From positions 2,046,001 to 2,110,000 of the forward strand of contig NZ_BAAAWU010000001.1 in the NCBI RefSeq assembly GCF_039535235.1: 64,000 nucleotides of DNA, given 5' to 3'. This DNA is from Streptomyces roseoviridis (GTDB lineage: Bacteria > Actinomycetota > Actinomycetes > Streptomycetales > Streptomycetaceae). How positions within the stretch are numbered: position 1 is the first letter of the stretch; every line of letters starts with the position of its first letter. The notes beneath the pieces are model-generated. The model made no database searches. It was not told the origin of the DNA and was given only the letters and a program-made list of their open reading frames with translations. Shown piece after piece: positions 41,817 to 61,500 of this stretch. The position numbers and the translations under genes are program-made.

Positions 41817-42224
41817 ATGACCCCGCCCCCCGCCTCTCACGATCCGTACGGCGCCTCGATAGACGACCCGTACGGACCTGAGGGCGACCAGCCGCTGGTC
41901 CGTCCGTACGCGATGACCGGCGGCCGGACCCGGCCGCGCTACCAGCTCGCCATCGAGGCGCTGGTCAGCACCACGGCCGACCCCGCGCACCTGGCCACCC
42001 TGCTTCCCGAGCACCAGCGGATCTGCCACCTGTGCCGTGAGGTGAAGTCGGTGGCGGAGGTGTCGGCGCTCCTGTCGATGCCGCTCGGCGTCGCCCGCAT
42101 CCTCGTGGCCGACCTGGCCGAGGCGGGCATGGTGGCCATCCACCAGCCGGGCAACGGAGAGGCCGGCGGCACGCCGGACGTGACACTGCTCGAAAGGGTG
42201 CTCAGTGGACTTCGCAAGCTCTAG
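41817..42224 (+). CDS. cvnC1: DUF742 protein CvnC1
   Basis: A 135-residue protein with the DUF742 winged-helix-like domain (LVRPYAMTGGRTRPRYQLAIEALV, HQRICHLCREVKSVAEVSALLSMPLGVARILVADLAEAG). It starts at ATG behind CGGAGGATTC. The last 20 bases overlap cvnD1. Its N-terminal Gly/Pro/Tyr linker is much shorter than in CvnC2. The CxxC (CHLC) pair is shared with the paralogue. Confidence 0.92.
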   Translation: MTPPPASHDPYGASIDDPYGPEGDQPLVRPYAMTGGRTRPRYQLAIEALVSTTADPAHLATLLPEHQRICHLCREVKSVAEVSALLSMPLGVARILVADLAEAGMVAIHQPGNGEAGGTPDVTLLERVLSGLRKL

Positions 42225-42795: not shown

Positions 42796-43146
42796 TACAC
42801 ATCAAGTAGAAGTCGATATACGGCAGTTGTCGTAGAGGTTTTGGGGGCGGTCTGTGTCCTTCGACACGACCGCCCCGGGGTTCATAACATTTCGACAGAG
42901 AATTGGGGCGCCTCGGACACCCGACGCATCCGATCGGTGCCGCTGCGCTCACATGAGCCCCGCTTTTTGGCGGGGCTCGCTCTTTATGCCCGTTTTATCT
43001 CGGGTCGGAGCCAGAAAAACCGGCTGCTCCGCACTGTTTGGAAGGGACCCCCTTCACGTGCTGCAATTCATGAACTCCCGAGTAGTACGGCCCTGAACGA
43101 AACACCGGCACAACGTAGGTGCCGACGCCGAGAGGTTGTTGGTCGA
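42796..43146. other. Inter-conservon region
   Basis: 350 bases between cvnD1 and cvnA2 that must hold the terminator of the first and promoter of the second conservon. It has an AT-rich start (TACACATCAAGTAGAAG), a G-rich tract and the hairpin at 42955-42978. No gene with ribosome-binding site or codon bias was found. Confidence 0.5.
42955..42978 (+). terminator. Hairpin with T-rich loop between conservons
   Basis: GAGCCCCGC pairs with GCGGGGCTC around TTTTTG, followed by a T-rich CGCTCTTTATG. It could end cvn1 or act as leader attenuation for cvnA2. Confidence 0.55.
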
Positions 43147-46100
43147 GTGAGGCGAAGCAAGGAAAGCTCCGCAGAGCAGCAGGCGCGGGGCAACTTCACG
43201 CCGCCGTCCCGCCCGGGGTTCACGCCCGTGGACGAGCCCGTGACGCCCCCGGCCCCGAGCCGCAAGGGCAGCTCCAGCAAGCTGTCCCCGCGCAACTGGC
43301 GCGTGCCCACCAGGCTGAACGCGATCCTCCTCATACCCGTGCTCGTCGGCCTGGTCATGGGCGGCTTCCAGGTGAAGACCGCCATCGACACCTGGCAGGA
43401 GGCGAAGGACGCCGAGAAGACGGCGCTCATCGTGCGCGCCGCCTCGGAGTACAGCCAGGCGCTGCTCAACGAGCGTGACCTGACCGCCATCCCGCTGCTC
43501 AAGGCCAAGAACGCCGGCGACCGGGAGACCGACGAGGTCACCCAGGCGTACGCCGCCACCGACGCCGCCAAGCTGAAGTTCGACGAGGCGGCCAAGAACC
43601 TGCCGAGCGGACAGGGCCTGGAGCGCCGCCTCGGCCTGTTCCGCAGCGCCGAGCCCAAGCTCACGGAGCTGCGCAAGGTCGCCTACACCCGGGCGCTCGA
43701 CCCGGTGAACACCCAGCGCGGCTACACCGAGGTCCAGCACTACCTGATGGAGTTCTCCAACGAGCTCGGTCTGGGCACCGGCAACATCACCAGCTACGGC
43801 CGTACGGTCTACGCGATCCAGCTCGCGAAGGCCGCCGAGTCCCTGCAGCGGTCGATCGGCACCCAGCTGCTGGTCCGTCCCTCCAAGAAGGACGACGTCT
43901 TCGCGCAGCAGTCGGTTGCGTTCAACTCGTACAACTACCTGGAGCAGATCGCCCTCGGCGAGTACCAGTCGGGTGGCACCGAGGCCGACGTGGAGCGGCT
44001 GAAGAAGGTCATGGCGGCCAAGGCCACCGAGGGCTCCCGGAAGATGGCCGCGGCCGGCGTCGAACTGCCCAAGGACGCCTCCGGCTCCGTCTACGGCGGC
44101 GCGGCCCAGCTGATCGGCTCCGCGAAGGACGCCGACGCGCTCGCGGACCTCAAGCAGCAGGGCATCACCGCCGAGACCTGGATGGCCATCGCCACCGCCA
44201 AGTTCGACGGCTACACCGAGGTCGAGAAGGAGCTCGTCGACAAGGCCGTGACCGAGGCCGCCGACATCGCCGGCGACGCCCAGACCGACGCCTGGGTCAA
44301 CGGCGGCATCGTCGTGATCGCCCTGCTCGCCGCCTTCATCCTGGCCGGCATGATGGCCCGCCAGATGAGCCGCTCGATGAGCGAGCTGCGCACCGCGGCC
44401 TTCTCCATCGCCGAGCAGCGCCTGCCGATGCTGGTCGACCAGCTCTCCCGCACCGAGCCGGGCCGGGTCGACACCCGCGTGCAGCCCATCCCGATCGACT
44501 CCCAGGACGAGATCGGCGAGGTCGCCCGCGCCTTCGACCAGGTGCACCGCGAGGCCGTCCGGCTCGCCGCCGAGCAGGCCATGCTCCGCGGCAACGTCAA
44601 CGCGATCTTCACCAACCTCTCGCGCCGCAACCAGTCGCTCATCGAGGGCCAGCTGACCCTCATCACCGACCTGGAGAACAACGAGGCCGACCCGGACCAG
44701 CTGGAGAACCTCTTCAAGCTGGACCACCTGGCGACCCGTATGCGCCGCAACGGCGAGAACCTCCTCGTCCTCGCCGGCGAGGAGCCCGGCCGCCGCTGGG
44801 ACCAGCCGGTCCCGCTGGTCGACGTCATGCGCGCCGCCTCCTCCGAGGTGGAGCAGTACGAGCGCATCGAGCTGGCCGGCGTCCCGGACGCCGAGATCCA
44901 CGGCCAGGCCGTGACCGACCTCGTGCACCTGCTCGCCGAGCTCCTGGAGAACGCCACCACGTTCTCCTCCCCGCAGACCAAGGTCCGGGTCACCGCGACC
45001 CGCCTGCCCGACGGCCGCGTCATGGTCGAGATCCACGACAAGGGCATCGGCCTGACCGCCGAGGACTTCGCGGACATCAACCACAAGCTGGCCAACCCGC
45101 CGACCGTGGACGCCGCCGTCTCGCAGCGCATGGGCCTGTTCGTGGTCGGCCGCCTCGCCGACCGGCACGGCATCCGGGTCCAGCTGCGCCCCTCGGGCGA
45201 GCAGGCCGGCACGACCTCGCTGGTCATGCTGCCGGACGCGATCACGCACGGCGGTGGCGGCGAGCAGCCGGTGCAGGACGACTTCACCGTCTCGCAGATC
45301 ATCCCGCAGCAGGCACAGCACGCCTTCGAGCCGCAGGCGCAGCCGATGCGGACCGCGGCCGAGCTCGGCTTCGACGACTCGCGCTACGAGCAGCCGGCCG
45401 ACGACCGCCAGCTGGACCCGGTGAACCGCTCCCTGATGCGCGAGGAGCGCCGGGCGGCCCTCGGGGCCCAGGTGCAGCACGGCGACGACCGCCCGCTGTA
45501 CGGGGACGAGACGGACGCCTCCGGGCAGCAGACGTACGTACCGCAGGAGCACCAGCAGGAGTACGGCGCGGAGCAGTCCGCCGAGTACCCGCAGGAGTAC
45601 GCCCAGGACTACGGGCAGGACTACCCGCAGGGCCAGGACGCCTACGGCTTCCCGCAGCAGGGGTACGAGCAGTACGAGCAGCCCGCCGACGGCTACCGCG
45701 AGCAGGCATATGCGGAAGCCTCGTACGACGCCGGCGCGAGCGGCCACGGCGGATACCAGAACGGCTACGAACCCCAGCCCCACCAGGGGGACTGGCAGCA
45801 GCAGACCGGCTACGGCGACGGCTACGCGCAGCAGTTCGGGACCGAATCGGAATCTGCCCAGGCCGCTCCCGAACAGGACCGTGACCGCGTAGGCTTCGAC
45901 CGTCCGGGTGCCACGCCGAGTCCCTCCCCGGACGCCGGCCACGCGCTGACCGACGCCGGTCTGCCGCGCCGCGGCAGCGTCGCCCCGCAGGCGCCGCAGA
46001 CCCCGCAGGCGCCGCAGTCCGCGCCGCCGGCCCAGTCCGCGGGTCCGGCCGGAAACGAAGCCGACGGCACCGGGGACTGGCGCTCCGCCAACGACGAGCG

Positions 46101-46365
46101 CTGGTCCCGGGCCGAGAAGCTCCGCGACCCGAAGGCGGGCGGGGTCACCCCCTCCGGTCTTCCCCGACGGGTCCCCAAGGCCAACCTGGTCGAAGGGGCC
46201 GCGGAGCAGACCCCGCAGGGCGGCCCACAGGTCTCCCGCGCACCGGAGGACGTGCGGGGCAGGTTGAGCAACCTGCGCCGCGGAGTCCAGCAGGGGCGCA
46301 GCGGGGGTACGGACACGAACGGATCGGGCCTCGGCCCGGGCAACACCTACAACCAGGAGCGTTAG
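43147..46365 (+). CDS. cvnA2: Conservon sensor-kinase-like protein CvnA2
   Basis: About 1072 residues from a GTG giving VRRSKESSAEQQARGN, with GAGAGGTTG about 12 bases upstream as in cvnA1. Layout: membrane helix at about 56-76, extracytoplasmic helical sensor differing clearly from CvnA1, second membrane helix at about 380-405, and a GHKL ATPase nearly identical to CvnA1 in the HREAVRLAAEQ, FTNLSRR, LATRMRRNGENLLVLAGEEPG and LAELLENATTFSSPQ blocks. The tail from about residue 700 is Gln/Tyr/Glu-rich (many QEY and QDY), unlike the Pro/Gln tail of CvnA1, but it ends with the same VSRAPEDVRGRLSNLRRG block. Confidence 0.9.
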   Translation: MRRSKESSAEQQARGNFTPPSRPGFTPVDEPVTPPAPSRKGSSSKLSPRNWRVPTRLNAILLIPVLVGLVMGGFQVKTAIDTWQEAKDAEKTALIVRAASEYSQALLNERDLTAIPLLKAKNAGDRETDEVTQAYAATDAAKLKFDEAAKNLPSGQGLERRLGLFRSAEPKLTELRKVAYTRALDPVNTQRGYTEVQHYLMEFSNELGLGTGNITSYGRTVYAIQLAKAAESLQRSIGTQLLVRPSKKDDVFAQQSVAFNSYNYLEQIALGEYQSGGTEADVERLKKVMAAKATEGSRKMAAAGVELPKDASGSVYGGAAQLIGSAKDADALADLKQQGITAETWMAIATAKFDGYTEVEKELVDKAVTEAADIAGDAQTDAWVNGGIVVIALLAAFILAGMMARQMSRSMSELRTAAFSIAEQRLPMLVDQLSRTEPGRVDTRVQPIPIDSQDEIGEVARAFDQVHREAVRLAAEQAMLRGNVNAIFTNLSRRNQSLIEGQLTLITDLENNEADPDQLENLFKLDHLATRMRRNGENLLVLAGEEPGRRWDQPVPLVDVMRAASSEVEQYERIELAGVPDAEIHGQAVTDLVHLLAELLENATTFSSPQTKVRVTATRLPDGRVMVEIHDKGIGLTAEDFADINHKLANPPTVDAAVSQRMGLFVVGRLADRHGIRVQLRPSGEQAGTTSLVMLPDAITHGGGGEQPVQDDFTVSQIIPQQAQHAFEPQAQPMRTAAELGFDDSRYEQPADDRQLDPVNRSLMREERRAALGAQVQHGDDRPLYGDETDASGQQTYVPQEHQQEYGAEQSAEYPQEYAQDYGQDYPQGQDAYGFPQQGYEQYEQPADGYREQAYAEASYDAGASGHGGYQNGYEPQPHQGDWQQQTGYGDGYAQQFGTESESAQAAPEQDRDRVGFDRPGATPSPSPDAGHALTDAGLPRRGSVAPQAPQTPQAPQSAPPAQSAGPAGNEADGTGDWRSANDERWSRAEKLRDPKAGGVTPSGLPRRVPKANLVEGAAEQTPQGGPQVSRAPEDVRGRLSNLRRGVQQGRSGGTDTNGSGLGPGNTYNQER

Positions 46366-46366
46366 T

Positions 46367-46789
46367 GTGAGCGCGATGAGCCAGGCGGCGCAGAATCTGA
46401 ACTGGTTGATCACCAACTTCGTGGACAACACCCCCGGGGTGTCCCACACGGTGGTGGTCTCCGCCGACGGCCTCCTGCTGGCGATGTCCGAGGGGTTCCC
46501 CCGGGACCGCGCCGACCAGCTGGCGGCGGTCGCGTCCGGGCTGACCTCGCTGACCGCGGGCGCGTCCCGGATCTTCGAGGGCGGTGCGGTCAACCAGACC
46601 GTCGTGGAGATGGAGCGCGGCTTCCTCTTCATCATGTCGATCTCGGACGGCTCCTCGCTGGCCGTGCTCGCCCACCCCGAGTCCGACATCGGTCTCGTGG
46701 GCTACGAGATGGCACTGCTCGTCGACCGCGCGGGAAGCGTCCTGACCCCCGACCTGCGGGCGGAACTGCAGGGAAGTCTTCTCAACTAA
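46367..46789 (+). CDS. cvnB2: Roadblock/LC7 protein CvnB2
   Basis: A 140-residue roadblock protein starting GTG (MSAMSQAAQNLNWL), one base after the cvnA2 stop. Nearly identical to CvnB1; differences cluster at GGAVNQ/GGPVAQ and at the last residue. It is expected to form a complex with the CvnA2 and CvnD2 proteins. Confidence 0.92.
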   Translation: MSAMSQAAQNLNWLITNFVDNTPGVSHTVVVSADGLLLAMSEGFPRDRADQLAAVASGLTSLTAGASRIFEGGAVNQTVVEMERGFLFIMSISDGSSLAVLAHPESDIGLVGYEMALLVDRAGSVLTPDLRAELQGSLLN

Positions 46790-46888
46790 CAGACAGACGG
46801 TGCGTTTCTCGCCACCGCACCGTAGGGTGCGGTGGCGCGGTTCCAAGGGACATGGGGCCGCGAGGCAGTCGGAGGAGGAGACGAAGAC

Positions 46889-47455
46889 GTGGGCACACCC
46901 CCGGGCGGAAGCCCTTACAACGGTTTCGACGGGCATCAGGCGCCGCTGGGCGACACCGCGCAGAACCGCTTCAACTTTCCCTCCGCCCCGAGCAGACAGG
47001 GCACCCAGCAGCCCTATCAGCAGCAGCCGCAGCCTCAGCACCCGGCCGCCGGCAGCCCGAGCGCGTCCGCCGCGCCGGGCCGCAGAGCGGGCGGTCAGGG
47101 CGCCTCGGGCGGGCACAACCCGCTCGTGCGCCCGTACGCGATGACCGGCGGCCGGACCCGGCCGCGTTACCAGCTCGCCATCGAGGCGCTGGTCAGTACG
47201 ACGGCCGATCCGGCCCGGCTGCAGGGGCAGTTGCCCGAGCACCAGCGGATCTGCCGGCTGTGCTTCGAGATCAAGTCGGTCGCGGAGATCTCGGCACTTC
47301 TCTCCATCCCCCTCGGCGTTGCCCGGATTCTCGTCGCCGACCTGGCCGAGGCCGGACTTGTCGCCATCCACCAGCCCGGCGGCGACGAGGCCGCCGGCGG
47401 TCAGCCAGACGTGACACTGCTCGAAAGGGTGCTCAGTGGACTTCGCAAGCTCTAG
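46889..47455 (+). CDS. cvnC2: DUF742 protein CvnC2
   Basis: A 188-residue DUF742 protein. GTG at 46889 behind GGAGGAGGAG gives VGTPPGGSPYNGF; a 19-codon longer frame exists without a better site. An N-terminal Gln/Pro/Ala-rich linker of about 70 residues is longer than in CvnC1, followed by the same LVRPYAMTGGRTRPRYQ domain with CRLC. The last 45 bases of both cvnC genes are identical. It overlaps cvnD2 by 20 bases. Confidence 0.91.
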   Translation: MGTPPGGSPYNGFDGHQAPLGDTAQNRFNFPSAPSRQGTQQPYQQQPQPQHPAAGSPSASAAPGRRAGGQGASGGHNPLVRPYAMTGGRTRPRYQLAIEALVSTTADPARLQGQLPEHQRICRLCFEIKSVAEISALLSIPLGVARILVADLAEAGLVAIHQPGGDEAAGGQPDVTLLERVLSGLRKL

Positions 47456-48017
47456 CGGCGGCGCGACCCGTTCAACCACCAGCGCGAAGATCGTGGTGGC
47501 GGGTGGCTTCGGCGTGGGCAAGACCACATTCGTCGGCGCCGTCTCCGAGATCAACCCGCTGCGAACCGAGGCCGTGATGACGTCCGCGTCCGCGGGCATC
47601 GACGACCTCACCCACACGGGCGACAAGACGACGACGACTGTCGCCATGGACTTCGGCCGCATCACCCTGGACCAGGACCTGATCCTGTACCTCTTCGGTA
47701 CGCCCGGTCAGGACCGCTTCTGGTTCATGTGGGACGACCTGGTCCGCGGTGCCATCGGCGCCGTGGTGCTGGTCGACACCCGGCGTCTCGCCGACTGCTT
47801 CCCGGCGGTCGACTACTTCGAGAACTCGGGCCTGCCGTTCGTCATCGCCCTCAACGGCTTCGACGGCCACCAGCCGTACACCCCCGACGAGGTCCGCGAG
47901 GCCCTCCAGATCGGTCCCGACACCCCCATCATCACCACCGACGCCCGCCACCGCGCGGACGCCAAGAGCGCGCTCATCACCCTCGTCGAGCACGCCCTCA
48001 TGGCCCGCCTGCGGTAG
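47436..48017 (+). CDS. cvnD2: Conservon small GTPase CvnD2
   Basis: A 193-residue Ras-like GTPase with GGFGVGKTT, GTPGQDRFW and NGFD motifs. It is almost identical to CvnD1 (a few substitutions plus a short N-terminal indel) and coupled to cvnC2 by overlap. A strong hairpin follows at 48033-48074, so the downstream kinase operon has its own transcription unit or receives readthrough. Confidence 0.93.
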   Translation: MDFASSSGGATRSTTSAKIVVAGGFGVGKTTFVGAVSEINPLRTEAVMTSASAGIDDLTHTGDKTTTTVAMDFGRITLDQDLILYLFGTPGQDRFWFMWDDLVRGAIGAVVLVDTRRLADCFPAVDYFENSGLPFVIALNGFDGHQPYTPDEVREALQIGPDTPIITTDARHRADAKSALITLVEHALMARLR

Positions 48018-48032: not shown

Positions 48033-48074
48033 GCCGAAGGCCGCGTCCCCGTCCCGGGGAACGCGGCCTTCGGC
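48033..48074 (+). terminator. Terminator of the second conservon
   Basis: GCCGAAGGCCGCGT (48033-48046) pairs with ACGCGGCCTTCGGC (48061-48074), plus additional inner G-C pairs. It begins 16 bases after the cvnD2 stop. Confidence 0.85.
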
Positions 48075-48180: not shown

Positions 48181-49275
48181 ATGGGCTGGCCGGACGCGTC
48201 GGGCACGTCGAGGGCACCGGACGGTGTGCGCCGGATCGGGCGTTTCACGATCGAGGAGACGCTGGGCCGGGGCGGGATGGGCAAGGTCTACCTGTGCCGT
48301 ACGCCCGCCGGACTCCGGCTCGCGGTCAAGGTGATCCGCAAGGACCTGGCCGACGACCACGACATCCGGGTGCGGTTCAACCGCGAGGTCGACGCCCTGC
48401 TCGGGGTGCGCAGCCCGTACACGCTGCCGGTGTACGCGGCCGAGACCGTTCGGCCACCGCTCTGGCTCGCCGCCCGGTACGTGGAGGGGCCCACCCTGGA
48501 CGCCCACGTCCGCGCCCGGGGGCCGTTGCCCGAGCGGCGGGTCGCGGAGCTGGGGGCGATGCTGGCGGAGGCGCTGTCCGACGTGCACGCCCACGGGGTG
48601 ATCCACCGGGACCTCAAGCCCACCAACATCATCCTGGAGGGCGGGGAGCCCCGGCTCATCGACTTCGGGATCGCCCGGTCGGCCGGTGTGACCCGCGGCC
48701 TGACCATCCCCGGTTCGCCCCTCGGCACGCACGGCTACATGCCGCGCGAACAGCTACAGGGGGACGAACCGACGCCCGCGGTCGACGTGTTCGCGCTCGG
48801 CGCCGTCCTGGTGTTCGCGGCCACCGGCCATCCGCCGTACGGCCACGGACTGCCCGCGAGCCTGCGGATCCACCAGGGCGAGCCGCCCCGGCTGACCGGA
48901 GTCCCGCCCTCGCTCGTGGACGTCGTGGCCGCCTGTCTGTCGGCCGCGCCGGCCGACCGCCCGGCGCCGGAGGCGATCATGGCGGCGCTCCACGAGGTCG
49001 CGCGCGAGGACTCCCCCGCCCCGCCCGCACCACGCGACGCGCCCGCCCCGCCGGTCTTGTCCGCCACGCCCGGCTCGCCCGCGACGCCCGCCGCGCCGGG
49101 CCGGGACCCGCGGGCCCGCACCCTCCCCGTGTCCGATCCACCGCACCACTGCCACGTGCCGGTGCCGCCGGCCGCCGGCGAGGGGTGCGCCCTGCGGCCG
49201 GTCGCGGCCCGACTGCTCGCCTCGGGGATGTCGCGTCCCCTCATCAGGAAGGCGGTTCTGCAACATGCCCGTTGA
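48181..49275 (+). CDS. Soluble Hanks-type Ser/Thr protein kinase
   Basis: A 364-residue kinase, first gene of a six-gene operon. The Gly-loop is GRGGMGKVY (29-37), the catalytic Lys is K50 in AVKVI, HRDLKPTN puts Asp144 and Asn149 in place, and DFG is intact at 161-163, so it should be active. The kinase domain ends near residue 275. The tail is Pro/Ala-rich, with no PASTA repeats and no membrane helix, unlike PknB. The ATG at 48181 lies behind a G-rich tract. It overlaps the next gene by 11 bases. Confidence 0.92.
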   Translation: MGWPDASGTSRAPDGVRRIGRFTIEETLGRGGMGKVYLCRTPAGLRLAVKVIRKDLADDHDIRVRFNREVDALLGVRSPYTLPVYAAETVRPPLWLAARYVEGPTLDAHVRARGPLPERRVAELGAMLAEALSDVHAHGVIHRDLKPTNIILEGGEPRLIDFGIARSAGVTRGLTIPGSPLGTHGYMPREQLQGDEPTPAVDVFALGAVLVFAATGHPPYGHGLPASLRIHQGEPPRLTGVPPSLVDVVAACLSAAPADRPAPEAIMAALHEVAREDSPAPPAPRDAPAPPVLSATPGSPATPAAPGRDPRARTLPVSDPPHHCHVPVPPAAGEGCALRPVAARLLASGMSRPLIRKAVLQHAR

Positions 49276-49741
49276 GCCCGTGGTCGAACTGCGCGAGGGC
49301 TGGGAGTCGTTGGTCCGCGCCTGGGCGCGGCGGCGCGGCGAGCAGGTCCACAGCGAGGACGGCGCGCTGTACCTCCAGACGAAGGCCGGGGGCCCGTCCG
49401 GGACCCGTCTCACCGTGGACATCAGCCCGGCGGCCGGTTCGCTCGTGGTGGCCGTCACCGACGGGACGCTGGTCCCGCCGGACCGGCTGGCCCCGACGGC
49501 CGCGGCCGCGACCGCGTGGAACGCCCACGAGGTGACCCCGGCCGCCGTCCTCGGCGACGCCCGCAGCGACGAGCCCCTGCTCTCCGCGGTCCTCGCGCTG
49601 CCCCTGGTCTCGCACCTGTCCGTCCCCGGGTTCGCGGCGACGCTGGACACGCTCCTCGAGCGGGCGGTGCGGCTGCTGCGCGAGTGCCATGACCTGGGAT
49701 TCGTTCTGCGGAGCGACGATGACCTCGCCACGCGGGACTGA
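49265..49741 (+). CDS. YbjN-like protein in kinase/phosphatase operon
   Basis: A 158-residue protein with the two-half alpha/beta pattern of the YbjN/type III secretion chaperone-like fold: an N-terminal helix, strands around GALYLQTKA, TRLTVDISPAAGSLVVAVTDG, then a C-terminal helix. This is fold-level similarity only. In related systems such proteins bind partner peptides. It overlaps the kinase (11 bases) and the next gene (23 bases), so it is translated as part of the operon. Confidence 0.6.
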   Translation: MPVEPVVELREGWESLVRAWARRRGEQVHSEDGALYLQTKAGGPSGTRLTVDISPAAGSLVVAVTDGTLVPPDRLAPTAAAATAWNAHEVTPAAVLGDARSDEPLLSAVLALPLVSHLSVPGFAATLDTLLERAVRLLRECHDLGFVLRSDDDLATRD

Positions 49742-50849
49742 CGCCGTGGAGTCGGCAGCCGTCGTCCTGGCGGTCGCGGTGGTGCCCATGGCGGCGCTGC
49801 TCGTCGTGCTGTGGGCGAGCACGGGTTCCTGGCTCACGGGCCCCCGCCGGCACGCGGACGACCACGAACGGCCCGACCGTCGCCGGGCGGAAGAGCGCCG
49901 GGCGGAAGACCGCAGGGCGGAAGAGCGCCGGGCTGAGGAACGACGGATCGAAGAACGCCGGGCCGCCGAACGCCGGACGGACGAGGAACGACGGATCGAA
50001 GAACGCCGCGCCGCCGAACGCCGGACCGAGGAGCGCCGGGCCGCCGAACGCCGGACGGACGAGCGGCGGGCGGGTGAACGCCCGGCCCGGCCGTGGGAGT
50101 CCGGGGGCCGGGCGCCCGGGCCGGGCCGGGCCGGGCGACAGGAGCCCGACCCCCGCCAGGCGTACGGGAGTCAGGGGCAGGAGCAGGGGCAGGGCACGGC
50201 TCCTCCGGACCCGTACCGGAGCCCTTCCGGTCCGCCGCCCCGGCTGCTGCGGGACGACGTCGAGCGGCTCATGGCCGGCCCGCGCGCGCTCCTGAACAAC
50301 GTGCTCGACGCGACCGCCTCCCTGCTGCCGCACCGCACGACGCCGCCGCCGGACCCCGCGGCGCGGGCGGAGGCCGACGGCGCGGCCGGGCCGGGGGCCG
50401 ATGCCGGAACCCCGCCCGGCGCGACGCCGGGGACCGGGCCGGGGGCCGGGTCCGAGGCGGCGTCGCGGCTCGACACGGAGCCGGGACCGGGGTCCGGTCC
50501 GGGAGCGGGCACCAGGGCGGGACCAGGCGCGGCGACGGTGCCGGAGCCGTGGGCCGTCCCCGCGGCCCGTCGCCCCGCCCTGCCGGCCACGGCCGCACCG
50601 ACCGCTCCGGCCGGCCCGCCCCCACGGGCCGCCGAGGGCGACACCCTCGCCCTCGGCTCCGGGCAGCGGATCGTCGTCAGCGCCGCGACCTGGCTGCGCC
50701 CCGACGGATACGTGGAGTGGGAGGGCGCCCTGTGCCGGGCCCGCTGGCTGGGGCCCGCGTCGGCCTACCCCCGCCCCGGCGACCTGGTCCGCGTCACCCT
50801 CGATCCGGCCCTCGACCCGCCGCTGCTCCTGGCCGGCCCGCTCCACTGA
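49719..50849 (+). CDS. Single-pass membrane protein with Arg/Glu repeat and NfeD-like C-terminal domain
   Basis: A 376-residue protein. Residues about 9-33 form one membrane helix (VVLAVAVVPMAALLVVLW). Next is an uninterrupted charged run of about 75 residues built of RRAEE and ERRAA units, likely a single long helix, then a Pro/Gly/Ala-rich linker. The C-terminal roughly 70 residues (SGQRIVVSAATWLRPDGYVEWEGALCRARWLG to LVRVTLDPALDPPLLLAG) look like an NfeD/OB-type beta-barrel. The topology suggests a membrane scaffold reaching into the cytoplasm. ATG at 49719 is chosen because it gives a short N-terminus before the helix. No function is known to me. Confidence 0.7.
   Translation: MTSPRGTDAVESAAVVLAVAVVPMAALLVVLWASTGSWLTGPRRHADDHERPDRRRAEERRAEDRRAEERRAEERRIEERRAAERRTDEERRIEERRAAERRTEERRAAERRTDERRAGERPARPWESGGRAPGPGRAGRQEPDPRQAYGSQGQEQGQGTAPPDPYRSPSGPPPRLLRDDVERLMAGPRALLNNVLDATASLLPHRTTPPPDPAARAEADGAAGPGADAGTPPGATPGTGPGAGSEAASRLDTEPGPGSGPGAGTRAGPGAATVPEPWAVPAARRPALPATAAPTAPAGPPPRAAEGDTLALGSGQRIVVSAATWLRPDGYVEWEGALCRARWLGPASAYPRPGDLVRVTLDPALDPPLLLAGPLH
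49935..50057. repeat. 48/45-bp direct repeats coding for the Arg/Glu helix
   Basis: The unit beginning GAGGAACGACGGATCGAAG occurs at 49935 and 49983, and a shorter diverged copy (GAGGAGCGCCGG) at 50028. Unit lengths are 48 and 45 bases, so the reading frame is kept. Recombination between copies could vary helix length between strains. Confidence 0.75.
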
Positions 50850-50895
50850 ACCACCGCGCGACCCCCGTCCCCGTCCTTCGCTCCACGGAGTAGCC

Positions 50896-51684
50896 GTGTT
50901 CCCCACCGCAAGTCCCGACGAAGCCCCGCTCCCCGTGCCGTACATGGGCTTCGAGTTCGACAGTGCCCAGCGCCTGCCGCTCCTGCTGTGTCTGGACACC
51001 TCCTCGTCCCTGACGCAGAGCGGCGCCATCGGCGCGCTCAACGACGCCCTCACCTCCTGGGCGGAGAGCCTGGCCAACGACATGGCGCTGAGCGCCGCCG
51101 TCGATGTCGCCGTGATCACGTTCGGGGGCGTCGAGGGCATCACCGTCTGGCAGGGCGCCACCCCGCTCGGCGCCGTCGCGCCGAAGTGGCCGCACAGCCC
51201 GTTCGTGCCCGCCAACGAGTTCCGTCCGCCGGTGCTGCGCGCCCACGGGGTGACGCTCCTGGACCGGGCGCTGCACCTGGCCATGGAGGTCGTCGCCGAC
51301 TACAAGGCGGGGCTGCGCGCGGAGGGCCTCACCTACTACCGCCCGCAGATCTGCGTGGTCACCGACGGCGCCCCCAGCGACGAGCAGGGCCGGTTCTCGC
51401 ACGCCTACCGCGAGCTGCTGCCGGAGCTGCGCAAGGCGGAGCGGGAACAGCGGTTCCGGCTCTTCGCGGTCGGGGTGGGCGAGCGGCACGCCGGTGCGGA
51501 GGAGGTGCTCAAGGAGCTCGCCCCGCACTACCACGCCTGGCTGGACGGCTTCCCCTTCGCCGAGCTGCTCACGGCGATGTCGCACAGCGCCCGGGCCACC
51601 CAGGGCGGCGCGGCCGAGGCCGAGTTCCAGGAGATCTTCGCCCGGCTCAAGCGCCGGCGCGGCGGTGGGCAGGTCCCCGCGTGA
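50896..51684 (+). CDS. TerY-like von Willebrand factor A protein
   Basis: A 262-residue vWA-domain protein. The metal-ion-dependent adhesion site is complete: DTSSS (Asp34, Ser36, Ser38), the Thr of HGVTLLDRA, and the Asp of VVTDGAP. The TerY type usually lies with PP2C and a kinase in the same operon, as here. It is cytoplasmic, with no signal peptide. GTG at 50896 behind CACGGAG. The stop overlaps the PP2C start as GTGA. Confidence 0.88.
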   Translation: MFPTASPDEAPLPVPYMGFEFDSAQRLPLLLCLDTSSSLTQSGAIGALNDALTSWAESLANDMALSAAVDVAVITFGGVEGITVWQGATPLGAVAPKWPHSPFVPANEFRPPVLRAHGVTLLDRALHLAMEVVADYKAGLRAEGLTYYRPQICVVTDGAPSDEQGRFSHAYRELLPELRKAEREQRFRLFAVGVGERHAGAEEVLKELAPHYHAWLDGFPFAELLTAMSHSARATQGGAAEAEFQEIFARLKRRRGGGQVPA

Positions 51685-52565
51685 GGGGGCGGGACCGGCC
51701 GTCGTCCCGGTGGCGGGTGCACGACATCAGCTCCCGGGGCTACCGGCACATCCAGGACGACACGCCCTGTCAGGACGCCTGGGACCGGCTGGAGACCCCG
51801 GGCGGTCTGGTGCTCGCGGTGGCGGACGGGGCGGGCAGCGCGCCCCGGTCCGGCGAGGGCGCGCGGGAGGCGGTACGGCTCGCGGTGGAGGCGTTCGCGC
51901 CGGTGGCGGCGCCGTGGCAGCGGATCGGCGGCGCACGGCTGTGCCGGGAGCGGATGACCGAGGCGTTCCGGGAGGTCCGGTCCTCCTTCCTGCGCTGGTG
52001 CGAGGGCCCGCCGGGGCCGTACGCGACCACGCTGACGGTGGTGGTGGCCGCCGAAGGCTGGCTGGGGCAGGCCTCGGTCGGCGACGGTCTCGTGCTCGTC
52101 CGGGCGGTACCGGTCGGCGGTCCGCGGGGCGGCCCGGCGGGGCCTGCGGAAAGCGGCCCGTACGCGAGCGGAACCGCCGGCCCCGGCGGGGGCACGGCGG
52201 CGCCCTCGTACCATCTGCTGCCGCGGGCGCACACCGGCAGCGAGTACGCGAACGAGACCGTCTTCCTCGGCTCCACCACCGCCCTCGGCCGGCTCCGGGT
52301 CGACTGCGTCCGCGACGACGCCATCGACGGGGTGCTGCTGTCCACGGACGGTCTGACCCAGGCGCTGCTGCGGCGGGCGCCCGCCGGCCCGCCGCTGCCC
52401 CACGACGCCTTCCTCGGCCATCTCTTCGACCGGCTCGGCCGGTCCGACTACGACCACGACGAGGAGGAGCGCCGGCTCGGGGACTTCCTCGCCTCCGACC
52501 AGATCACCCGTGTGACCGGGGACGACAAGACTCTCCTGTGGGCGATACGACATGACGACCACTGA
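51681..52565 (+). CDS. PP2C-family protein phosphatase
   Basis: A 294-residue metal-dependent Ser/Thr phosphatase. The metal-binding motifs are present: QDDTPCQDAW near the N-terminus, VADGAGS (in place of DGxGG), GDG in QASVGDGLVLV, STDGL and GDDKTLLWA near the end. The middle has a Gly/Pro-rich insertion (PRGGPAGPAES). No membrane segment. It starts at GTG overlapping the vWA stop by four bases and overlaps the next kinase by 14 bases. It should oppose the kinases of the operon. Confidence 0.9.
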   Translation: MRGRDRPSSRWRVHDISSRGYRHIQDDTPCQDAWDRLETPGGLVLAVADGAGSAPRSGEGAREAVRLAVEAFAPVAAPWQRIGGARLCRERMTEAFREVRSSFLRWCEGPPGPYATTLTVVVAAEGWLGQASVGDGLVLVRAVPVGGPRGGPAGPAESGPYASGTAGPGGGTAAPSYHLLPRAHTGSEYANETVFLGSTTALGRLRVDCVRDDAIDGVLLSTDGLTQALLRRAPAGPPLPHDAFLGHLFDRLGRSDYDHDEEERRLGDFLASDQITRVTGDDKTLLWAIRHDDH

Positions 52566-54054
52566 CGACTCCACCGACGGCTCGGGCCTCGCGGACGGCC
52601 TCGACCTGACCCTCGGCGACGGCACCCGGATCAGCCGTACGGGCAAGGCGCTCGGCACCGGCGGTCAGGGCAGCGTCTGGGCGCTCGCGGAGCGTTCCGA
52701 CCTCGCCGGCAAGATCTACGACCGGGCCCCCGACGACGCCCAGCTGCGCCGGCTCGCCGCGATGCTGCGGGCCGACCCGCTGGCCGGCGAGCGGCTCGCC
52801 CCCGGACAGCCGCCGATGCTGGTGTGGCCGGTCCAGCTGATCGAGGCGGGCGGACGGGCCATCGGCTACGGGATGCCGCTCGTGGACCTCACGGTGCAGA
52901 CCCCGCTCAACGGGGTGCTCCAGAAGCAGGTGCGGCTGCGCCGCTTCGAGGGGCGGGCGCACTGGAAGTTCCTGCTCGGGGTCGCGGCCAACCTCGCGTA
53001 CATGACCGCGGAGCTGCACCACCGCGGTTTCGTGGTGGGCGACCTGTCCGACCGGAACGCCGTCGTCGACCCGCGCGGCTACGTCACGCTCCTGGACTGC
53101 GACTCCTTCGCCTTCACGGACACCATGACCGGCGAGTTCTTCGGCTGTGACGTCTTCACCGACGACTACGCGGCGCCGGAGCGGCACCGCGGGGAGCAGG
53201 CCACCCGGCACTCGGACGACTTCGCGCTCGCCGTCCTCGTCTACCAGCTGCTCACCGCGGGCAACCACCCCTTCGACGGGGCCCCGCTGAACGGCTCCGC
53301 CGAGGCCACCCGCAAGGACAACATCGTGGCCGGCACGTCCTTCCTGGTGGAGCCGGCCCGGGTGCGCGTCCCGGCCCGGCTGCTGCCGCCCGAGGTGCAG
53401 CCGCCCGCGGTGCTGCGGCTGGCCCGGGAGGCGTTCGGGCCGGGACTCAGGGATCCGGCCCGGCGGCCTTCGTCGGCGCGGTGGCTCCAGGCCCTGGACG
53501 AGGCCCGCGAGTCGGTGGTGACCTGCGCGGCCGTGCCGGAGCACCACTACGGAGGGCACCTGTCCGACTGTCCGTGGTGTGCTCGGGTCGGGGCGGGGCA
53601 GTCCGACCCGTTCGTGGACGGCCGGGCCGGGACGAGGGCGTCGGCCCAGCGGCCCGGCGGCTCCACGTCGGCCTCCCGGCCCTCCTCCGCCTCGTCGTCC
53701 GCCTCCGCCTCGTCGTCCGCCTCGACCTCGTCGTCCGCCTCCGCCTCGACCTCGTCCGCCACGTCGGCTTCCGGGTCCGGGTCCTCCGCCCCTCCCCCGA
53801 GGACCAAGCCCACCCCGACGTCCGCGTCGAAGCCGAAGCCCCGTCCCGCCCCGCCGTCGAAGCCGAGGCCGAAGCCGGACTCGGACGGGAACGGGAAGGC
53901 GCAGGGCGCCCCCGAGCCGGCCGGGAAGACCGCCCCCCAGCCCGCCACCAACGGCGAGATGGCGCTCGGCTGTGCGATCTTCGCGCTGGCCGCCGGTGTC
54001 GTGGTCGCGGTGATCTGGGGTCTGATCGTGCTGATCCAGGGGCTTCTCAAATAG
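52552..54054 (+). CDS. Atypical kinase with zinc knuckle and C-terminal membrane anchor
   Basis: A 500-residue protein. The kinase-like domain has GTGGQGSVW (35-43), the ATP Lys K54 in LAGKIYD, the catalytic loop GDLSDRN with Asp164 and Asn169 (lacking the usual His-Arg before Asp), and LDCDSF in place of DFG with Asp182. Similar altered motifs occur in the kinases of TerY-P operons, which appear active. A Zn-knuckle-like HHYGGHLSDCPWCAR follows (about 330-345), then Ser/Pro-rich disordered sequence and a C-terminal membrane helix (about 472-495, MALGCAIFALAAGVVVAVIW). The protein is thus tail-anchored, with its kinase facing the cytoplasm. It is the last gene of the operon; a terminator follows. 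Confidence 0.85.
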   Translation: MTTTDDSTDGSGLADGLDLTLGDGTRISRTGKALGTGGQGSVWALAERSDLAGKIYDRAPDDAQLRRLAAMLRADPLAGERLAPGQPPMLVWPVQLIEAGGRAIGYGMPLVDLTVQTPLNGVLQKQVRLRRFEGRAHWKFLLGVAANLAYMTAELHHRGFVVGDLSDRNAVVDPRGYVTLLDCDSFAFTDTMTGEFFGCDVFTDDYAAPERHRGEQATRHSDDFALAVLVYQLLTAGNHPFDGAPLNGSAEATRKDNIVAGTSFLVEPARVRVPARLLPPEVQPPAVLRLAREAFGPGLRDPARRPSSARWLQALDEARESVVTCAAVPEHHYGGHLSDCPWCARVGAGQSDPFVDGRAGTRASAQRPGGSTSASRPSSASSSASASSSASTSSSASASTSSATSASGSGSSAPPPRTKPTPTSASKPKPRPAPPSKPRPKPDSDGNGKAQGAPEPAGKTAPQPATNGEMALGCAIFALAAGVVVAVIWGLIVLIQGLLK

Positions 54055-54060: not shown

Positions 54061-54097
54061 GAGGGCCGGACCCCGGTCTCCCCGGGGTCCGGCCCTC
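54061..54097. terminator. Terminator of the kinase/phosphatase operon
   Basis: A perfect 16-bp stem (54061-54076 with 54082-54097) around TCTCC, six bases after the last stop. It also faces the end of accE. Confidence 0.85.
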
Positions 54098-56070: not shown

Positions 56071-58416
56071 CTAGACGAGCAGGGTGCAGCCGTGGGTGGC
56101 GCACGCCGTACCGGGCGTGATCCGCAGCCGCAGCGCGGCCCCGGTGCCGAGCACCTCCACCGTGGCGTCGCGGGCGAGCACGGCCCGTACCGGCCGGTCC
56201 CAGACCAGCTCGAACGGCTGCCCGGACCGGAGCGGCTCGCTGATCCGCAGGGTCGCGGTGGAGCGGCCTCGCCGCAGCAGCACACTCGCGGGTGCCGAGA
56301 CGGTGAGGCGGTCCACCGTACCGGCCTGCCAGAAGTTGGCGGCGGTCAGTCCGAGGGACGGGACGGCGACGGCCTGCCGGTCGGCGCCGTTGGCGAGGAT
56401 CCTGAGCCAGCCGGGGTCGGCGGCGCGGGCGGCGAGCGTCGCGGGCGAGGCGCCCGGCATCAGCAGGTAGGCGTAGGAGGCGTCCGTCGGGTCGGTGCCG
56501 TGGTCGATCCAGAGGGTCTGGTAGCGGCGGGTGCGGCGTTCGGTGGCGCTGGTGGTGTTGATGTCGCTCCAGGCGCCGGTACGGTCCTCGCGCAGGGTGC
56601 GCAGCCGCTCCGTACCGTCCGGGCCGGGGAAGACCCAGCCTCCGTGGCCGGCGAGGTGCGCCCAGCCGGCGCCCCGCGTGAAGGAGGCGGTCCCCTCCTC
56701 GCCCAGGCAGCGGTTGTCGACCACCGTCTCGACGGGGACGCCGTCCCGGGCGGTGATGCCGGCGCCCAGGCAGATGACGGTGTCGGCGGCGCAGAACCAG
56801 GACTTGCGGGCCTCCAGGGTGGAGCCGAGGCCCTTGAGGTGCTGGCCGACGGCGGCGAACTCGCCGTCGGTGGTGCCGCCGACCCACTTCACGGCCGGCT
56901 TGGGCGCGCCCCACTCGCCGCCGGCCCGGTCGGCGAGGCGCTTGGTGGAGACGGTGGTGCCGGGCAGCCGGTAGGGGTCGACGGTGGGCCAGAACCAGTC
57001 GGTGTACTGGCCGCCCTGGCCCCGGGTCCACCAGGAGAGCATTCCGGCGCCGGTGTGCCAGCCGCGCGGGTTCTCGCCGTTGCCGCACTCGTAGTACGCG
57101 ATCCGCTCGGAGGCCATGGAGATGTTGGCGGCCCAGCCGGGGCGGCGGTGCACGGCCCGGTCCATGGCGGCGAAGAGCCGGTGCCCGGTGGGCTCGGGGG
57201 CGGCGGGGACGGGTGCGGCGGCGACGGCGTGGAGGCGGGCGAGGTCGGCGACGCCGAACTGGCGGGCGCTCAGGATCGGGGAGACGGTGTCGCGCTCGAT
57301 CCAGCCCTTCACGCGCGCGTGCCAGCGGTCCCGTTCGGCCTGGCTCGCGCCGCCGGCGAGCAGGGCGACGGCGGCGATGACCCCCTGGCCGTGGAAGTGG
57401 TCGGAGCGCATGATCCGCCGCTCGTCGTCCTTCGGCAGACCGCGGCTGACGGCACGGCCGTTGACGCTGTCCATCATCAGGCCGTCGTAGATCAGGGGCG
57501 CGTAGGCCCTCTCGACGCTGTCGAGGACGATCTGCCGGTTCGGGTCGGTGACGTCCCAGCTGGAGCCGGCGAGCAGGGTGAAGAGCCGGCCGAGGCCGTC
57601 GAGCATGACCTGGCCGTAGGTGCCCGAGTAGGCGACCCAGGTGTGCTGGACGAAGGAGCCGTCGGCGTAGAGGCCGTCGCCCTTGGTGACGTAGGGGAAG
57701 ACGGGCGAGAGGGCGTCACGGGCGAGGGCGATCTTGGCGGGGTTCGCGCCGAGGACGCCGCGCAGGGCGACCGAGCGGCACAGGTCGACGCGGTTGGCTC
57801 CGGTGGAGGTGCCGGTGTAGGAGCCGAGCGCGCTGTCCGGGACGAAGTGGTCGACGGCCGCGCAGGCGGCGGCGATCCGTGCGGCGCCGAGCAACGGGTG
57901 GAGGGCGGCGACGATGTCCATGAGCAGGCGCGGGGAGCCGATCTGCCACTCCCACCAGTTGCCGTAGCGGGTGGTGCCGGAGTGGTAGACGCGCTCGGAG
58001 AGGTGGTCGAGGCCGCGCAGGACGTCGGTGAGCAGGCCGGGGTCGCCGGTGAGGCCGGTGCCGTCCTGGACGTACGCCTGGGTCATCGTCCACAGCCGGC
58101 CGTAGCTCTGGGTGATGCCGGCGGGCGGGTCGAAGGCGAGTCCGGGCCACAGCGAGGTGGCGGCGGGCGCCATGGTGGCCCGGAAGGTGCGGGCGAGGGT
58201 GCCGGTCTCGGCGAGCCGGGAGGCGTAGGGCTCGGCCCCGGCGTCGTAGCCGGAGCCGAGCTGGATGTCGAGCCACCGCCTCCGCAGGGTCTCGAACTCG
58301 TCGGTCTCCGCCGCGTGGGCGAGGGGGCCGAGGGGGTCGAGGGCGAGGGCGGCCGCGGTGGCGGTGGCGGTGGCGGTGGCGAGGAAGGTGCGGCGGGACC
58401 AGGCGGGGACGGGCAC
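56071..58416 (-). CDS. Secreted polysaccharide lyase family 8 (hyaluronate/chondroitin-lyase-like)
   Basis: A 781-residue exported enzyme with a twin-arginine-type signal (WSRRTFLATATATA, ending LAHAAE). The N-terminal alpha/alpha toroid carries NWWEW at 153-157 (aromatic patch), Asn208 in TGANRVDL, and His258 with Tyr267 in QHTWVAYSGTYG; the Asn-His-Tyr spacing matches the PL8 catalytic triad. C-terminal beta domains follow. PL8 enzymes cleave hyaluronate, chondroitin or xanthan by beta-elimination; which applies is not clear from sequence. GTG at 58416 lies behind GGGAGG. A LacI-like palindrome lies upstream. The enzyme is in line with the GH101 gene. Confidence 0.9.
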   Translation of the reverse strand: MPVPAWSRRTFLATATATATAAALALDPLGPLAHAAETDEFETLRRRWLDIQLGSGYDAGAEPYASRLAETGTLARTFRATMAPAATSLWPGLAFDPPAGITQSYGRLWTMTQAYVQDGTGLTGDPGLLTDVLRGLDHLSERVYHSGTTRYGNWWEWQIGSPRLLMDIVAALHPLLGAARIAAACAAVDHFVPDSALGSYTGTSTGANRVDLCRSVALRGVLGANPAKIALARDALSPVFPYVTKGDGLYADGSFVQHTWVAYSGTYGQVMLDGLGRLFTLLAGSSWDVTDPNRQIVLDSVERAYAPLIYDGLMMDSVNGRAVSRGLPKDDERRIMRSDHFHGQGVIAAVALLAGGASQAERDRWHARVKGWIERDTVSPILSARQFGVADLARLHAVAAAPVPAAPEPTGHRLFAAMDRAVHRRPGWAANISMASERIAYYECGNGENPRGWHTGAGMLSWWTRGQGGQYTDWFWPTVDPYRLPGTTVSTKRLADRAGGEWGAPKPAVKWVGGTTDGEFAAVGQHLKGLGSTLEARKSWFCAADTVICLGAGITARDGVPVETVVDNRCLGEEGTASFTRGAGWAHLAGHGGWVFPGPDGTERLRTLREDRTGAWSDINTTSATERRTRRYQTLWIDHGTDPTDASYAYLLMPGASPATLAARAADPGWLRILANGADRQAVAVPSLGLTAANFWQAGTVDRLTVSAPASVLLRRGRSTATLRISEPLRSGQPFELVWDRPVRAVLARDATVEVLGTGAALRLRITPGTACATHGCTLLV

Positions 58417-58583: not shown

Positions 58584-61500
58584 TCAGGCCGCGCAGTGGA
58601 AGCGGGCGTTCCCCCAGTCCGCGTGGTCGTTGCCGTTGCCGTCGCCCGCGTCGCCGACGACCAGGTCGACGTACGAGGCGCCGGTGACGTCGGCGGTGAG
58701 GGACCAGGCGCCGTCGTCGGCCCTGAGGACCGGGGACTTCGCCTTCTCCGTGCCGTCGGCGAGCACGCCGAACTGGACGCTGCCCCGGGTGGTCTGCGCG
58801 TCGTCCACACCGACCTCGGCGGTGAAGGAGGTGCAGCGTCCGCCCAGGTAGTAGCGCACCTTCGCGGTCGCGTGGGTGCCCAGTCCCTTGGCGTAGGCGA
58901 CTCCTCCGATCGTGAGCGGGCCGCCGTCGCCGCTGCCGGTCCCGCCGTTGGACCGGTCCTTCTCTGCCGGGCCCCAGCCGTTCGCGGCCGAGGTCCAGTG
59001 GAGGTCGCTCGCCCAGGCGTCGGCGGTCGGCGGCGGGGGCAGGGTGCGGACGGTGGTGGCCGCGGTCAGCCGGCGCGCCTCTCCGGCGACGCCGTAGGTG
59101 ACGGTGGCGCCGAGGTCGTACGGGCGGTGGGCCGCGTCCACCGGCGGGGTGACCTTCCAGGTGGCGGTCGTCGACTGGCCCGCGGCGACGGTGGCCAGGG
59201 CGACCGGGCCGGCCGGTTCGGCGGTCCAGCCCTCGGGGAGGGTGAGGACGGCCTCGGCGCCGGAGACGGCGGCGGCCTCGTCGTTGCCGAAGGTGGCGGT
59301 GACGGTGTTCGCCCGGCCCGGTTCCAGGGTCTCGGGCGCCGTCACGGAGAGCGTGCCGCAGGCGGCCCGCTCGGCGGCCGGGCCGAGGTCGGTGACGGTG
59401 AAGCGGTCGAGGACGAAGTCGGCACCGTCGGGGGCGTCGGCGCGCTTGCGCAGTCCGGTCCAGGTGTCGCCGCAACCGGCGGTCACCGTCTGGGAGAAGT
59501 GGCCGGTGGTCCTCTGCTGCCCGATCGGGGTGCGGCGGGTCTCGACGGGGGCGCCCTGGCCGCTCGTACGGTCGTAGCCGGTGACCCACTCGTAGGCGCC
59601 CGCGTGGCTGGACTGGTAGGCGAACTCGACGCGGTAGCTGCGCCCGTCCTTCATGGGGACGGTCCAGGGTGCCGTCCGGTAGACCAGACCGCTGTTCTCG
59701 TCGTGGGACTTGAGGGACTCGGCGCCGTCGAGGACGTCGTCGACCGTCTTCCCGTTCCAGCCGGCCTGGGTGTAGGGGGCGTGGAGCTGGGCGATGTGGG
59801 TGCGCGGGTCGGTGGTGCCGCCGGCGTCGCCCTTCAGGAAGGGGCCCCAGCCCTGGTCGACGGCCTCGAAGTCCTCGTACACCGTGGTCCCGGCCTTCGT
59901 CGCCGGGTCGTTCGCGACGATGCGGACGTCGTCCAGGCGGACGGCGGCGGTGGAGCCGCCCGCCGCCTCGACGCGCAGGGTGGTGGTGCCCGTGGCGGGG
60001 GCGGTGAAGGTGGTCTTGGCGCGCTGGAAGCGGGTGCCGTTCCAGTCGGAGGCGGCGACCCGGTCGGTCAGGGTGGAGCGGGCGACGGTGACGGAGGTGC
60101 CGCCGGCGAAGAGCGTGGTCGGGCGGGTCTTCCCGGCCTCGACCTCGACGAGGACCGAGGCGGTGTAGCGCCGGCCCGGGGTCAGTCCGGTGATCTGCTG
60201 GCGGACGGAGGCGGTGGCGGAGCCGGTGAGCTTCGCGCTGTTGCGGCCGTGCGCGTCGGTGTCGCGGGTCACGGTGCCGCTCTTCGCCCAGGCGTTCAGC
60301 CGGGCGTCGTTGAAGCCGGGGTCCCGGACCGGGGTGCCCTCGCCCCAGCGGGGATCGGGGGCGGCCGGGGCGGCGGAGGGATAGAGCACGTAGGGCTGTC
60401 CAGCGGTGGCGTCGAGGGAGACGCGGCCGCCGACGGGGGTGACCGTCCCGGTCTTCACCCGGCCGTTGTCGGTGAGCCGGTAGACGGAGTACGCGCCGGT
60501 GCCGGGGGGCACGGCCCAACTGGTCCTGCCGCCGGTCTTGTTGTAGTGGTAGAGCTTGCTCCCGCCGGCCCAGGGCAGCAGGTAGGCGTCGCCGTCGAGG
60601 ACCTTGCGGCCGTTCTCGTAGAAGGTGCGGCGGCCGTTCTCGACGGTGCCGCGGACGCCGCCGGTGAAGGTGATGTCGTCACCGTTCCAGCGGGTGATCC
60701 GCTGCCGCTGGAGGTACTTGGCGGGCAGGTTGCGCTGCCAGAGGTTGGCGGTGAAGGCGGTGTGGTCGGTCTCGCCGGTCCAGCCCTCGAAGTCGACGAG
60801 GGCGGTCTGCCCGAGGACGGGGTGGTCGTTCCAGACGTCCTTCTCGCCGTTGCGGATGAAGCGGATGATCTGCGAGTTGAGGCCCTTGTTGGTGACGCCG
60901 CCGTAGTCGAGGTCGTTGGCCCAGTGGGACCAGAGCGAGGCCCGCTCGAACTTCTCGGACCACTCGGTGGCGACGTTCCAGCCCTGCGCCTGGACGGCCT
61001 GCACCGTCTTGTCGGCGATCCAGCCGTGCGTGTAGTAGACGTCGATGTAGAGCGTCGAGAGGCCGGGGTCGGTCTCGTCGCGCAGCTGCCGGAGGCGGCG
61101 GGCGAGGTCGCCGCTGTTCACGTCCCGGCGCTGGTCGATGTAGTAGCTCTGGTTGAGCCAGTTCCAGCCGGGCCTGCTCTTGTCGACGAGGGTCTCGCTG
61201 AAGTTCTTCGCCTCCGGGTACGCCTCGGTGGCGTTGACGTGGACGCCGAAGTCCGCGCCCCACTTCTTCCCCTGCCTCAGGAGGGTGTTGAGGTCGGCGA
61301 GGCCGCCGGCGCGCTTGTTGTAGTTGCCGCCGTAGTCGGGGTGGGCGGAGTCGTGGCCCTCGGAGCCGTATCCCTTGAGCAGGGCGAACTGGCCGAGGCC
61401 GTCGGTGGCCAGGGAGACCCGCTTGACGTCGTCGAGGGTGCGCAGGAAGGGGTGGGTGGCGTTCGAGGCGAAGTTGAACGGGATGTGGGCGACGACCCGG

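Follow-up and report, generated by a model that had tools for sequence, protein, structure and literature searches.

A six-gene operon of TerY-P-like kind with two predicted membrane anchors in Streptomyces roseoviridis

TerY-P triads, which combine a vWA protein, a PP2C phosphatase and a kinase, recur in defence and stress systems. A triad of this kind is encoded, together with a second kinase and two further proteins, by a block of six genes in a 64,000-nucleotide stretch of the Streptomyces roseoviridis genome (contig NZ_BAAAWU010000001.1, positions 2,046,001 to 2,110,000; hereafter the window, to which unlabelled coordinates refer). Do these genes belong together, and what could their products do? 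The six open reading frames (ORFs) lie collinearly on the + strand at 48181-54054 in the order A-B-C-D-E-F, and the features of the locus are as follows.

48181..49275, + strand: A, a Ser/Thr protein kinase of 364 amino acids with intact catalytic motifs, without a clear transmembrane (TM) segment
49265..49741, + strand: B, a predicted YbjN-fold protein of 158 amino acids (AlphaFold/Foldseek), likely a protein-protein adaptor
49746..50849, + strand: C, a membrane protein with a predicted N-terminal TM helix, a variable Arg/Glu-rich linker and a conserved NfeD-like C-terminal domain
50661..50846, + strand: the NfeD-like C-terminal domain of C (last 62 residues, bounds approximate)
50896..51684, + strand: D, a stand-alone vWA protein with an intact metal ion-dependent adhesion site (MIDAS), the slowest-evolving of the six
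51681..52565, + strand: E, a PP2C phosphatase with the DGAG, STDG and GDD(K) motifs
52552..54054, + strand: F, an atypical kinase with GDLSDRN and DCDSF motifs, a zinc knuckle (C/H, CPWC), a low-complexity linker and a predicted C-terminal TM tail anchor
48033..48074, + strand: an 18-bp inverted repeat (94%), probably the terminator of the preceding conservon, which would set the operon apart from it
54061..54097, no strand assigned: a perfect 16-bp inverted repeat, likely a two-way terminator between F and accE

The six genes and their products

Judged from the sequence, the six genes are a real, putatively co-transcribed unit; the recurrence of their order, the A/B overlap and the constraint on them speak against a chance arrangement. 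The tight junctions described in the original prediction were borne out: A and B overlap by 11 nucleotides, D and E by 4 and E and F by 14, while C and D are 46 nucleotides apart. The start of C was revised from 49719/49689 to the GTG at 49746, 4 nucleotides past the stop codon of B, which is the probable start because the relatives compared begin C a few nucleotides after the B stop. With start codons chosen by our analysis scripts, the A/B overlap was kept in 14 of the 14 six-gene loci counted (the window and the S. zaomyceticus locus L052 included), and A lay upstream of B in all of them. The two flanking inverted repeats are predicted to form strong hairpins. A sigma-70 promoter scan gave no match, and a consensus terminator scan that requires a T run detected neither repeat; in a high-GC actinomycete both outcomes carry little weight. 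The notion of a low-GC foreign island was unsupported, the GC content being 0.73-0.80.

Each of the six genes is under constraint and evolves faster than AccB, a housekeeping gene next to the operon. The ratios of non-synonymous to synonymous substitution rates (dN/dS), calculated against two relatives with our own counting script, were 0.17-0.25 for D, 0.27-0.28 for B, 0.46-0.55 for A, E and F, and 0.54-0.67 for C, compared to 0.06-0.13 for AccB.

The triad is formed by D, E and F. The vWA domain of D scored just below the Pfam cut-off (E 1e-4), and its MIDAS residues D34, S36, S38, T120 and D157 are invariant in 15 aligned vWA proteins, that of the window included. E matched PP2C_2 (E 5e-36). 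F scored just below the Pfam cut-off for Pkinase (E 2e-7) and above that for PK_Tyr_Ser-Thr, and it carries the motifs GDLSDRN...DCDSF as well as a C/H...CPWC knuckle and ends in a hydrophobic segment. The knuckle, for which zinc binding is predicted from sequence, was found in the window protein and in 18 further distinct F proteins (the F of L051 repeats that of L031 and was not counted; L and G numbers denote loci and genomes). The second kinase, A, matched Pkinase at E 4e-39 and has the catalytic lysine, HRDLKPTN and DFG. The catalytic residues of the kinases and the phosphatase are conserved across homologues, as are the MIDAS residues. Pfam and motifs thus agree with what had been proposed for these four proteins, namely an active-looking Ser/Thr kinase, a MIDAS-intact vWA protein, a PP2C phosphatase and a second kinase with zinc knuckle and tail anchor, and the two membrane anchors proposed earlier correspond to predicted hydrophobic segments at the N-terminus of C and the C-terminus of F.

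Neither D nor E matched any PADLOC TerY-P model, and F matched only generic kinase models. The TerY model PDLC02224 gave no match to D at E 0.1, nor to the vWA proteins of L039 and L046 at E 0.01; it matched the vWA protein of L053, a locus from a metagenome-assembled genome (MAG), at E 5e-4. A and F also gave matches to the PD-T4-6 and mad6 models, those of A being strong (E 4e-58); we took these as generic kinase-domain matches and did not assign the two proteins to these systems. A may nonetheless have a single-kinase defence role, given the strength of its matches.

On the basis of its model, B has a YbjN fold (class I type III secretion chaperone-like), which is newly recognised here. The AlphaFold model (mean pLDDT 71, built from a three-sequence alignment) was used in a Foldseek search, where ranks 1-7 were all chains of E. 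coli YbjN or Erwinia AmyR (6vu7, 5fr7, 5frk), with a best E of 3.2e-5 and moderate TM-scores of 0.53-0.57. The YbjN-like character originally proposed for B was therefore recovered through the model, while the sequence itself stays below the Pfam YbjN cut-off (E 0.025; 15.3 bits versus 22), as does that of B in L031. The YbjN family works via protein-protein contacts, according to PMC5398634, and B is likely to be a protein-protein adaptor. A profile of B matched 5 of 394 genomes of the class, 3 of them strongly, these being within the genus; the two weak matches in other genera were dropped (L101 in G337, which is without operon context, and G485).

C had been described as an anchored Arg/Glu-repeat scaffold, which it is not in the main. 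The repeat is absent from most aligned relatives, which rules it out as the functional core; in the alignments the conserved parts are the TM helix and an NfeD-like C-terminal domain, newly recognised here. The middle of the protein is variable and the last ~62 residues are conserved, with the residues T, L, P, GYVE, L, R, W, P, P, V and A invariant in a 16-row alignment. The window protein has a single TM segment; many sister C proteins carry a long region ahead of it that looks extracytoplasmic. The Pfam NfeD model gave no match to C of the window and weak ones to its relatives (E 0.035 in L033, with 14.8 bits versus a cut-off of 29.1; 0.086 in L035; 0.26 in L129). A profile of the C domain matched the NfeD domain of two proteins in other genomes (G182 and G159; E 5e-5 and 1.4e-4), which Pfam itself calls NfeD (E 3e-12 and 4e-13). 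An hhalign comparison of the C domain with a four-protein NfeD target gave 91.6%. Profile comparisons therefore support homology to NfeD. NfeD domains are OB-folds.

Recurrence and relatives of the operon

Of 150 genomes sampled from the genus, 13 have the complete order A-B-C-D-E-F (12 loci and the window). A match to D was present in 23 of the 150, the genome of the window included, and absent from 127. Loci of 15.9-18 kb were taken from 19 of the 22 other D-positive genomes, 20 loci in all because G024 has two, and those of G101 and G142 were added separately; G139, whose match lies on a 7.4-kb contig, was left out of the locus comparison, and the distant D matches L048, L049, L050, L105 and L106 were excluded from the trees and operon counts.

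Four chromosomal settings were found for the six-gene operon. In the window, G143 (of which L051, from Streptomyces sp. Root1304, is by content the same locus), G015 and G103, and also in S. zaomyceticus L052 from the named collection, it lies between a conservon and accE. Seven six-gene loci adjoin a gene for GTP-type phosphoenolpyruvate carboxykinase (the pckG site), and a TelA gene is near the operon in 6 of these 7 (Pfam on one protein each, BLAST for the rest). L034 and L038 contain the operon with other neighbours. In the pckG-site loci L036 (13812-15957) and L035 (4555-6066), TelA is encoded next to the operon together with proteins of solute-binding type, one of them, in L035, with a vWA domain.

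Within the conservon-accE setting, we examined 50 AccB loci, all from 61 listed genomes. The gap filled by the operon in the window is empty in 37 of them, one of which (L144) has a broken GTPase gene. It contains the operon in 2 loci and other genes in 6; another 2 loci lack synteny, and the last 3 run into the end of a contig. Three of the six other-gene gaps hold NACHT NTPases (L103 8187-11279, L104 7891-10863 and L138 4165-7218; two with an NNH1 domain), one a methyltransferase with a glycosyltransferase, and two a Dak/MFS group. Since NACHT NTPases fill it elsewhere in the genus, the gap is possibly a small slot for variable or defence genes. The operon had been regarded as a possible lineage-specific insertion, and that stands insofar as the gap is filled in few lineages; an invention confined to this lineage is ruled out because the same order recurs at other sites.

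The D, E and F sequences of 27 loci were concatenated for a tree, with four MAG loci as the root. In this D-E-F tree the conservon-site operons are sister to a clade of the other six-gene operons and of the dynamin islands described below (support 100), so that the islands nest among the six-gene operons. A single clade for all six-gene operons was rejected (approximately unbiased (AU) test, p 3e-5).

Beyond the genus, the C-domain profile matched 14 of 394 genomes of the class. Three are within the genus, five outside it have parts of the cassette, and two are the NfeD proteins mentioned above; G212 and G447 are without operon or identified NfeD, and G199 and G453 were left out of the locus inspection. 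All four genes were called as ORFs in L129 and L136 (in L136, C is assigned from its position and the profile match), L128 and L130 have C, D and E plus an F-like protein, and in L131 D, E and F lie downstream of a C match; in the last three loci some parts are cut or uncalled. Judging by gene content, C-D-E-F is a cassette that exists also outside the genus, a finding that is new here.

Downstream of C-D-E-F, the genomes G085, G079 and G497 (L039, L043, and L100/L107 with L108-L111) encode, in this order, a dynamin-like GTPase, a C39-like peptidase (assigned with Pfam, in L039), another dynamin-like GTPase, Hsp70 and finally B. In G085 and G079, divergent genes encode CHAT, caspase and CRP-like proteins (assigned with Pfam for L039 and with BLAST for L043); these were not seen beside C in G497. 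Relatives of five of the six proteins, B to F, thus sit in islands whose gene content resembles that of cell-death or immunity systems. A more distant vWA/PP2C/kinase triad lies in L046 (1838-17998) with CHAT, RES, Fer4_12/radical SAM, AAA (ClpB-like) and Hsp70 genes.

A possible membrane-tethered switch and its alternatives

The triad itself is already known; the six-gene version with B and C and its predicted membrane tethers is new. TerY-P (Anantharaman et al. 2012), as described in the CoCoNuTs paper (PMC11090510), is a set of adjacent genes for a TerY-like vWA protein, a PP2C phosphatase and a kinase that ends in a zinc ribbon. D, E and F are likewise side by side, and F has a C-terminal zinc knuckle, so that the original assignment of a TerY-P kind of core was sound. 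The operon differs from TerY-P in the tail anchor of F, in the extra A, YbjN-fold B and NfeD-like C, in a D that the PADLOC TerY model does not match, and in the lack of Ter genes: as originally stated, model searches of the window gave no TerB, TerC or TerD, which have 1, 4 and 11 matches, respectively, elsewhere in the genome. Association with these genes is frequent for TerY-P and not obligatory.

In antiphage TerY-P-like modules, according to PMC11090510, the kinase carries a C-terminal OB-fold instead of the zinc ribbon, whereas here an NfeD-like domain is on the separate membrane protein C. Section 29 of Kaur et al. 2020 (PMC7159879) describes an actinobacterial theme in GAP1-N2 GTPase conflict systems that shares with our operon an active kinase with zinc ribbon or TM helices, PP2C and a stand-alone vWA protein; that section, centred on GAP1 GTPases, is without NfeD, YbjN or a second kinase. 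Pfam found no GTPase among the six operon proteins, and no search for GAP1 in the neighbourhood was made. C resembles NfeD proteins in being a membrane protein with a C-terminal domain of this kind, and differs in scoring below the Pfam cut-off, in its single TM segment and in having no stomatin/SPFH partner among the six. B shares its predicted fold with YbjN/AmyR and is distinguished by its place inside a kinase/phosphatase operon. No description of the six-gene set, of the NfeD-like C or of B as a partner of C was found in searches of openly licensed papers (texts without supplements and figures), and such searches gave nothing relevant on S. coelicolor gene numbers or on a conservon plus PP2C.

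We give about an even chance to the reading that A to F make up a reversible Ser/Thr-phosphorylation switch of TerY-P-like kind, tethered to the membrane and serving a stress or conflict response. In its favour are the catalytic and MIDAS residues conserved across homologues, the C-D-E-F cassette in other genera, the dynamin/Hsp70 islands and their place in the D-E-F tree, the NfeD link of C and the published kin. F, held in the membrane by its tail, and E would together decide whether a common partner is phosphorylated; the likeliest candidates for this partner are D and the disordered linker of C. D would hold or release a partner via its metal site, and C would anchor the complex by its TM helix and present the NfeD-like domain, on which partners could dock; in many relatives a further, extracytoplasmic domain of C might serve as an envelope sensor. 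Adjustment of the switch would fall to B and the second kinase A. The switch probably acts in trans, because no effector gene is apparent in the operon. Gene order, domains, conserved catalytic residues, hydrophobic segments and recurrence were observed; complex formation, the direction of phosphorylation, input and output are inferred. The term phospho-relay, used originally, is the wrong word for reversible Ser/Thr phosphorylation.

A number of results weigh against this reading. The conservon-site and pckG-site lineages of kinase A do not group in a tree, although their grouping was not rejected (AU p 0.135). The pckG-site A of L036 is closer to 13 other kinases of the S. roseoviridis genome than to A of the window, which ranks 14th of 36 matches to it in this genome; the other kinases in the tree were chosen by similarity to the pckG-site A, which may bias it. 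A may thus be fast-evolving, recruited twice or only loosely part of the system. The model of B has a high root-mean-square deviation, about 7.4, to its best structural matches, and a profile search of the PDB with B gave no YbjN. The hhalign comparison of the C domain with the four-protein NfeD target is not independent, because two of the four target proteins came from the same C-domain profile; an earlier comparison with a two-sequence target gave 3.6%. Foldseek with the poor model of C, folded from a three-sequence alignment, had no match better than E 2.6, and NfeD was missing from the results of a profile search of the PDB with C.

Other explanations have to be weighed against such a switch. 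A stand-alone antiphage system that senses infection and stops growth or blocks the phage would be in line with the patchy presence (13 of 150 genomes), with change faster than that of AccB, with the NACHT NTPases in 3 of 8 occupied conservon-accE gaps and with the kin in CHAT/caspase islands, and passages of PMC10889362, for P. aeruginosa, and of PMC7699616 report that TerY-P protects against phages. We nevertheless consider it unlikely, given the absence of PADLOC TerY-P matches for D and E, the generic kinase matches of F, and the lack of an apparent effector in the operon; a Pfam scan of nine window proteins, to which it was limited, found no defence family. If C instead read the state of the membrane or cell wall, the switch could tune growth or sporulation as a non-immune, envelope-stress or developmental regulator comparable to phage shock protein (PSP) systems. 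The extracytoplasmic-looking region of many sister C proteins and the TelA genes at 6 of 7 pckG-site loci fit this idea, as does the bac cluster of P. aeruginosa, in which a YbjN-like protein acts alongside a PspA homologue (PMC10948618). It appears rather improbable for a factor that, unlike a core regulator, has no D match in 127 of 150 genomes of the genus, and a Pfam scan of the six operon proteins found no PspA or SPFH/stomatin among them.

That the operon regulates its neighbours, the conservon GTPase or the acyl-CoA carboxylase, is suggested by their adjacency in the window and in four relatives (G143, G015, G103 and S. zaomyceticus). This is very hard to reconcile with operons at pckG and elsewhere, with the 37 of 50 loci in which conservon and accE are adjacent without it, and with the inverted repeats that separate it on both sides.

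The membrane-tethered switch can tentatively be extended to the wider family, although we think it somewhat more probable that this extension fails than that it holds. B to F would be a portable membrane control unit with C as NfeD-like receptor, B as YbjN-fold adaptor and the vWA/PP2C/kinase switch, wired in some Streptomyces to dynamin-like GTPases, Hsp70, CHAT and caspase as a cell-death circuit, and standing apart here with a second kinase, where it would steer effectors encoded elsewhere. This compact operon of ordinary Streptomyces offers two candidates for missing parts of TerY-P: the NfeD-like C as a receptor-like membrane protein, and B as a YbjN-fold adaptor. The same switch with and without dynamin, CHAT and caspase partners allows a natural comparison.

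Neighbouring genes in the window

The operon lies directly behind a GTPase conservon, as had been noted: the GTPase gene ends at 48017 and A begins at 48181. This conservon is the second of a tandem pair, with two conservon-like sets at 37455-48017 that each end in a very similar GTPase gene (42271-42795 and 47493-48017, according to the gene caller). Beyond accB, a polysaccharide lyase of family 8 (56071-58416) and a GH101 endo-alpha-N-acetylgalactosaminidase (58584-62522) are encoded side by side on the - strand, and genes that cluster with this pair lie at the same place in L031, L032 and L052.

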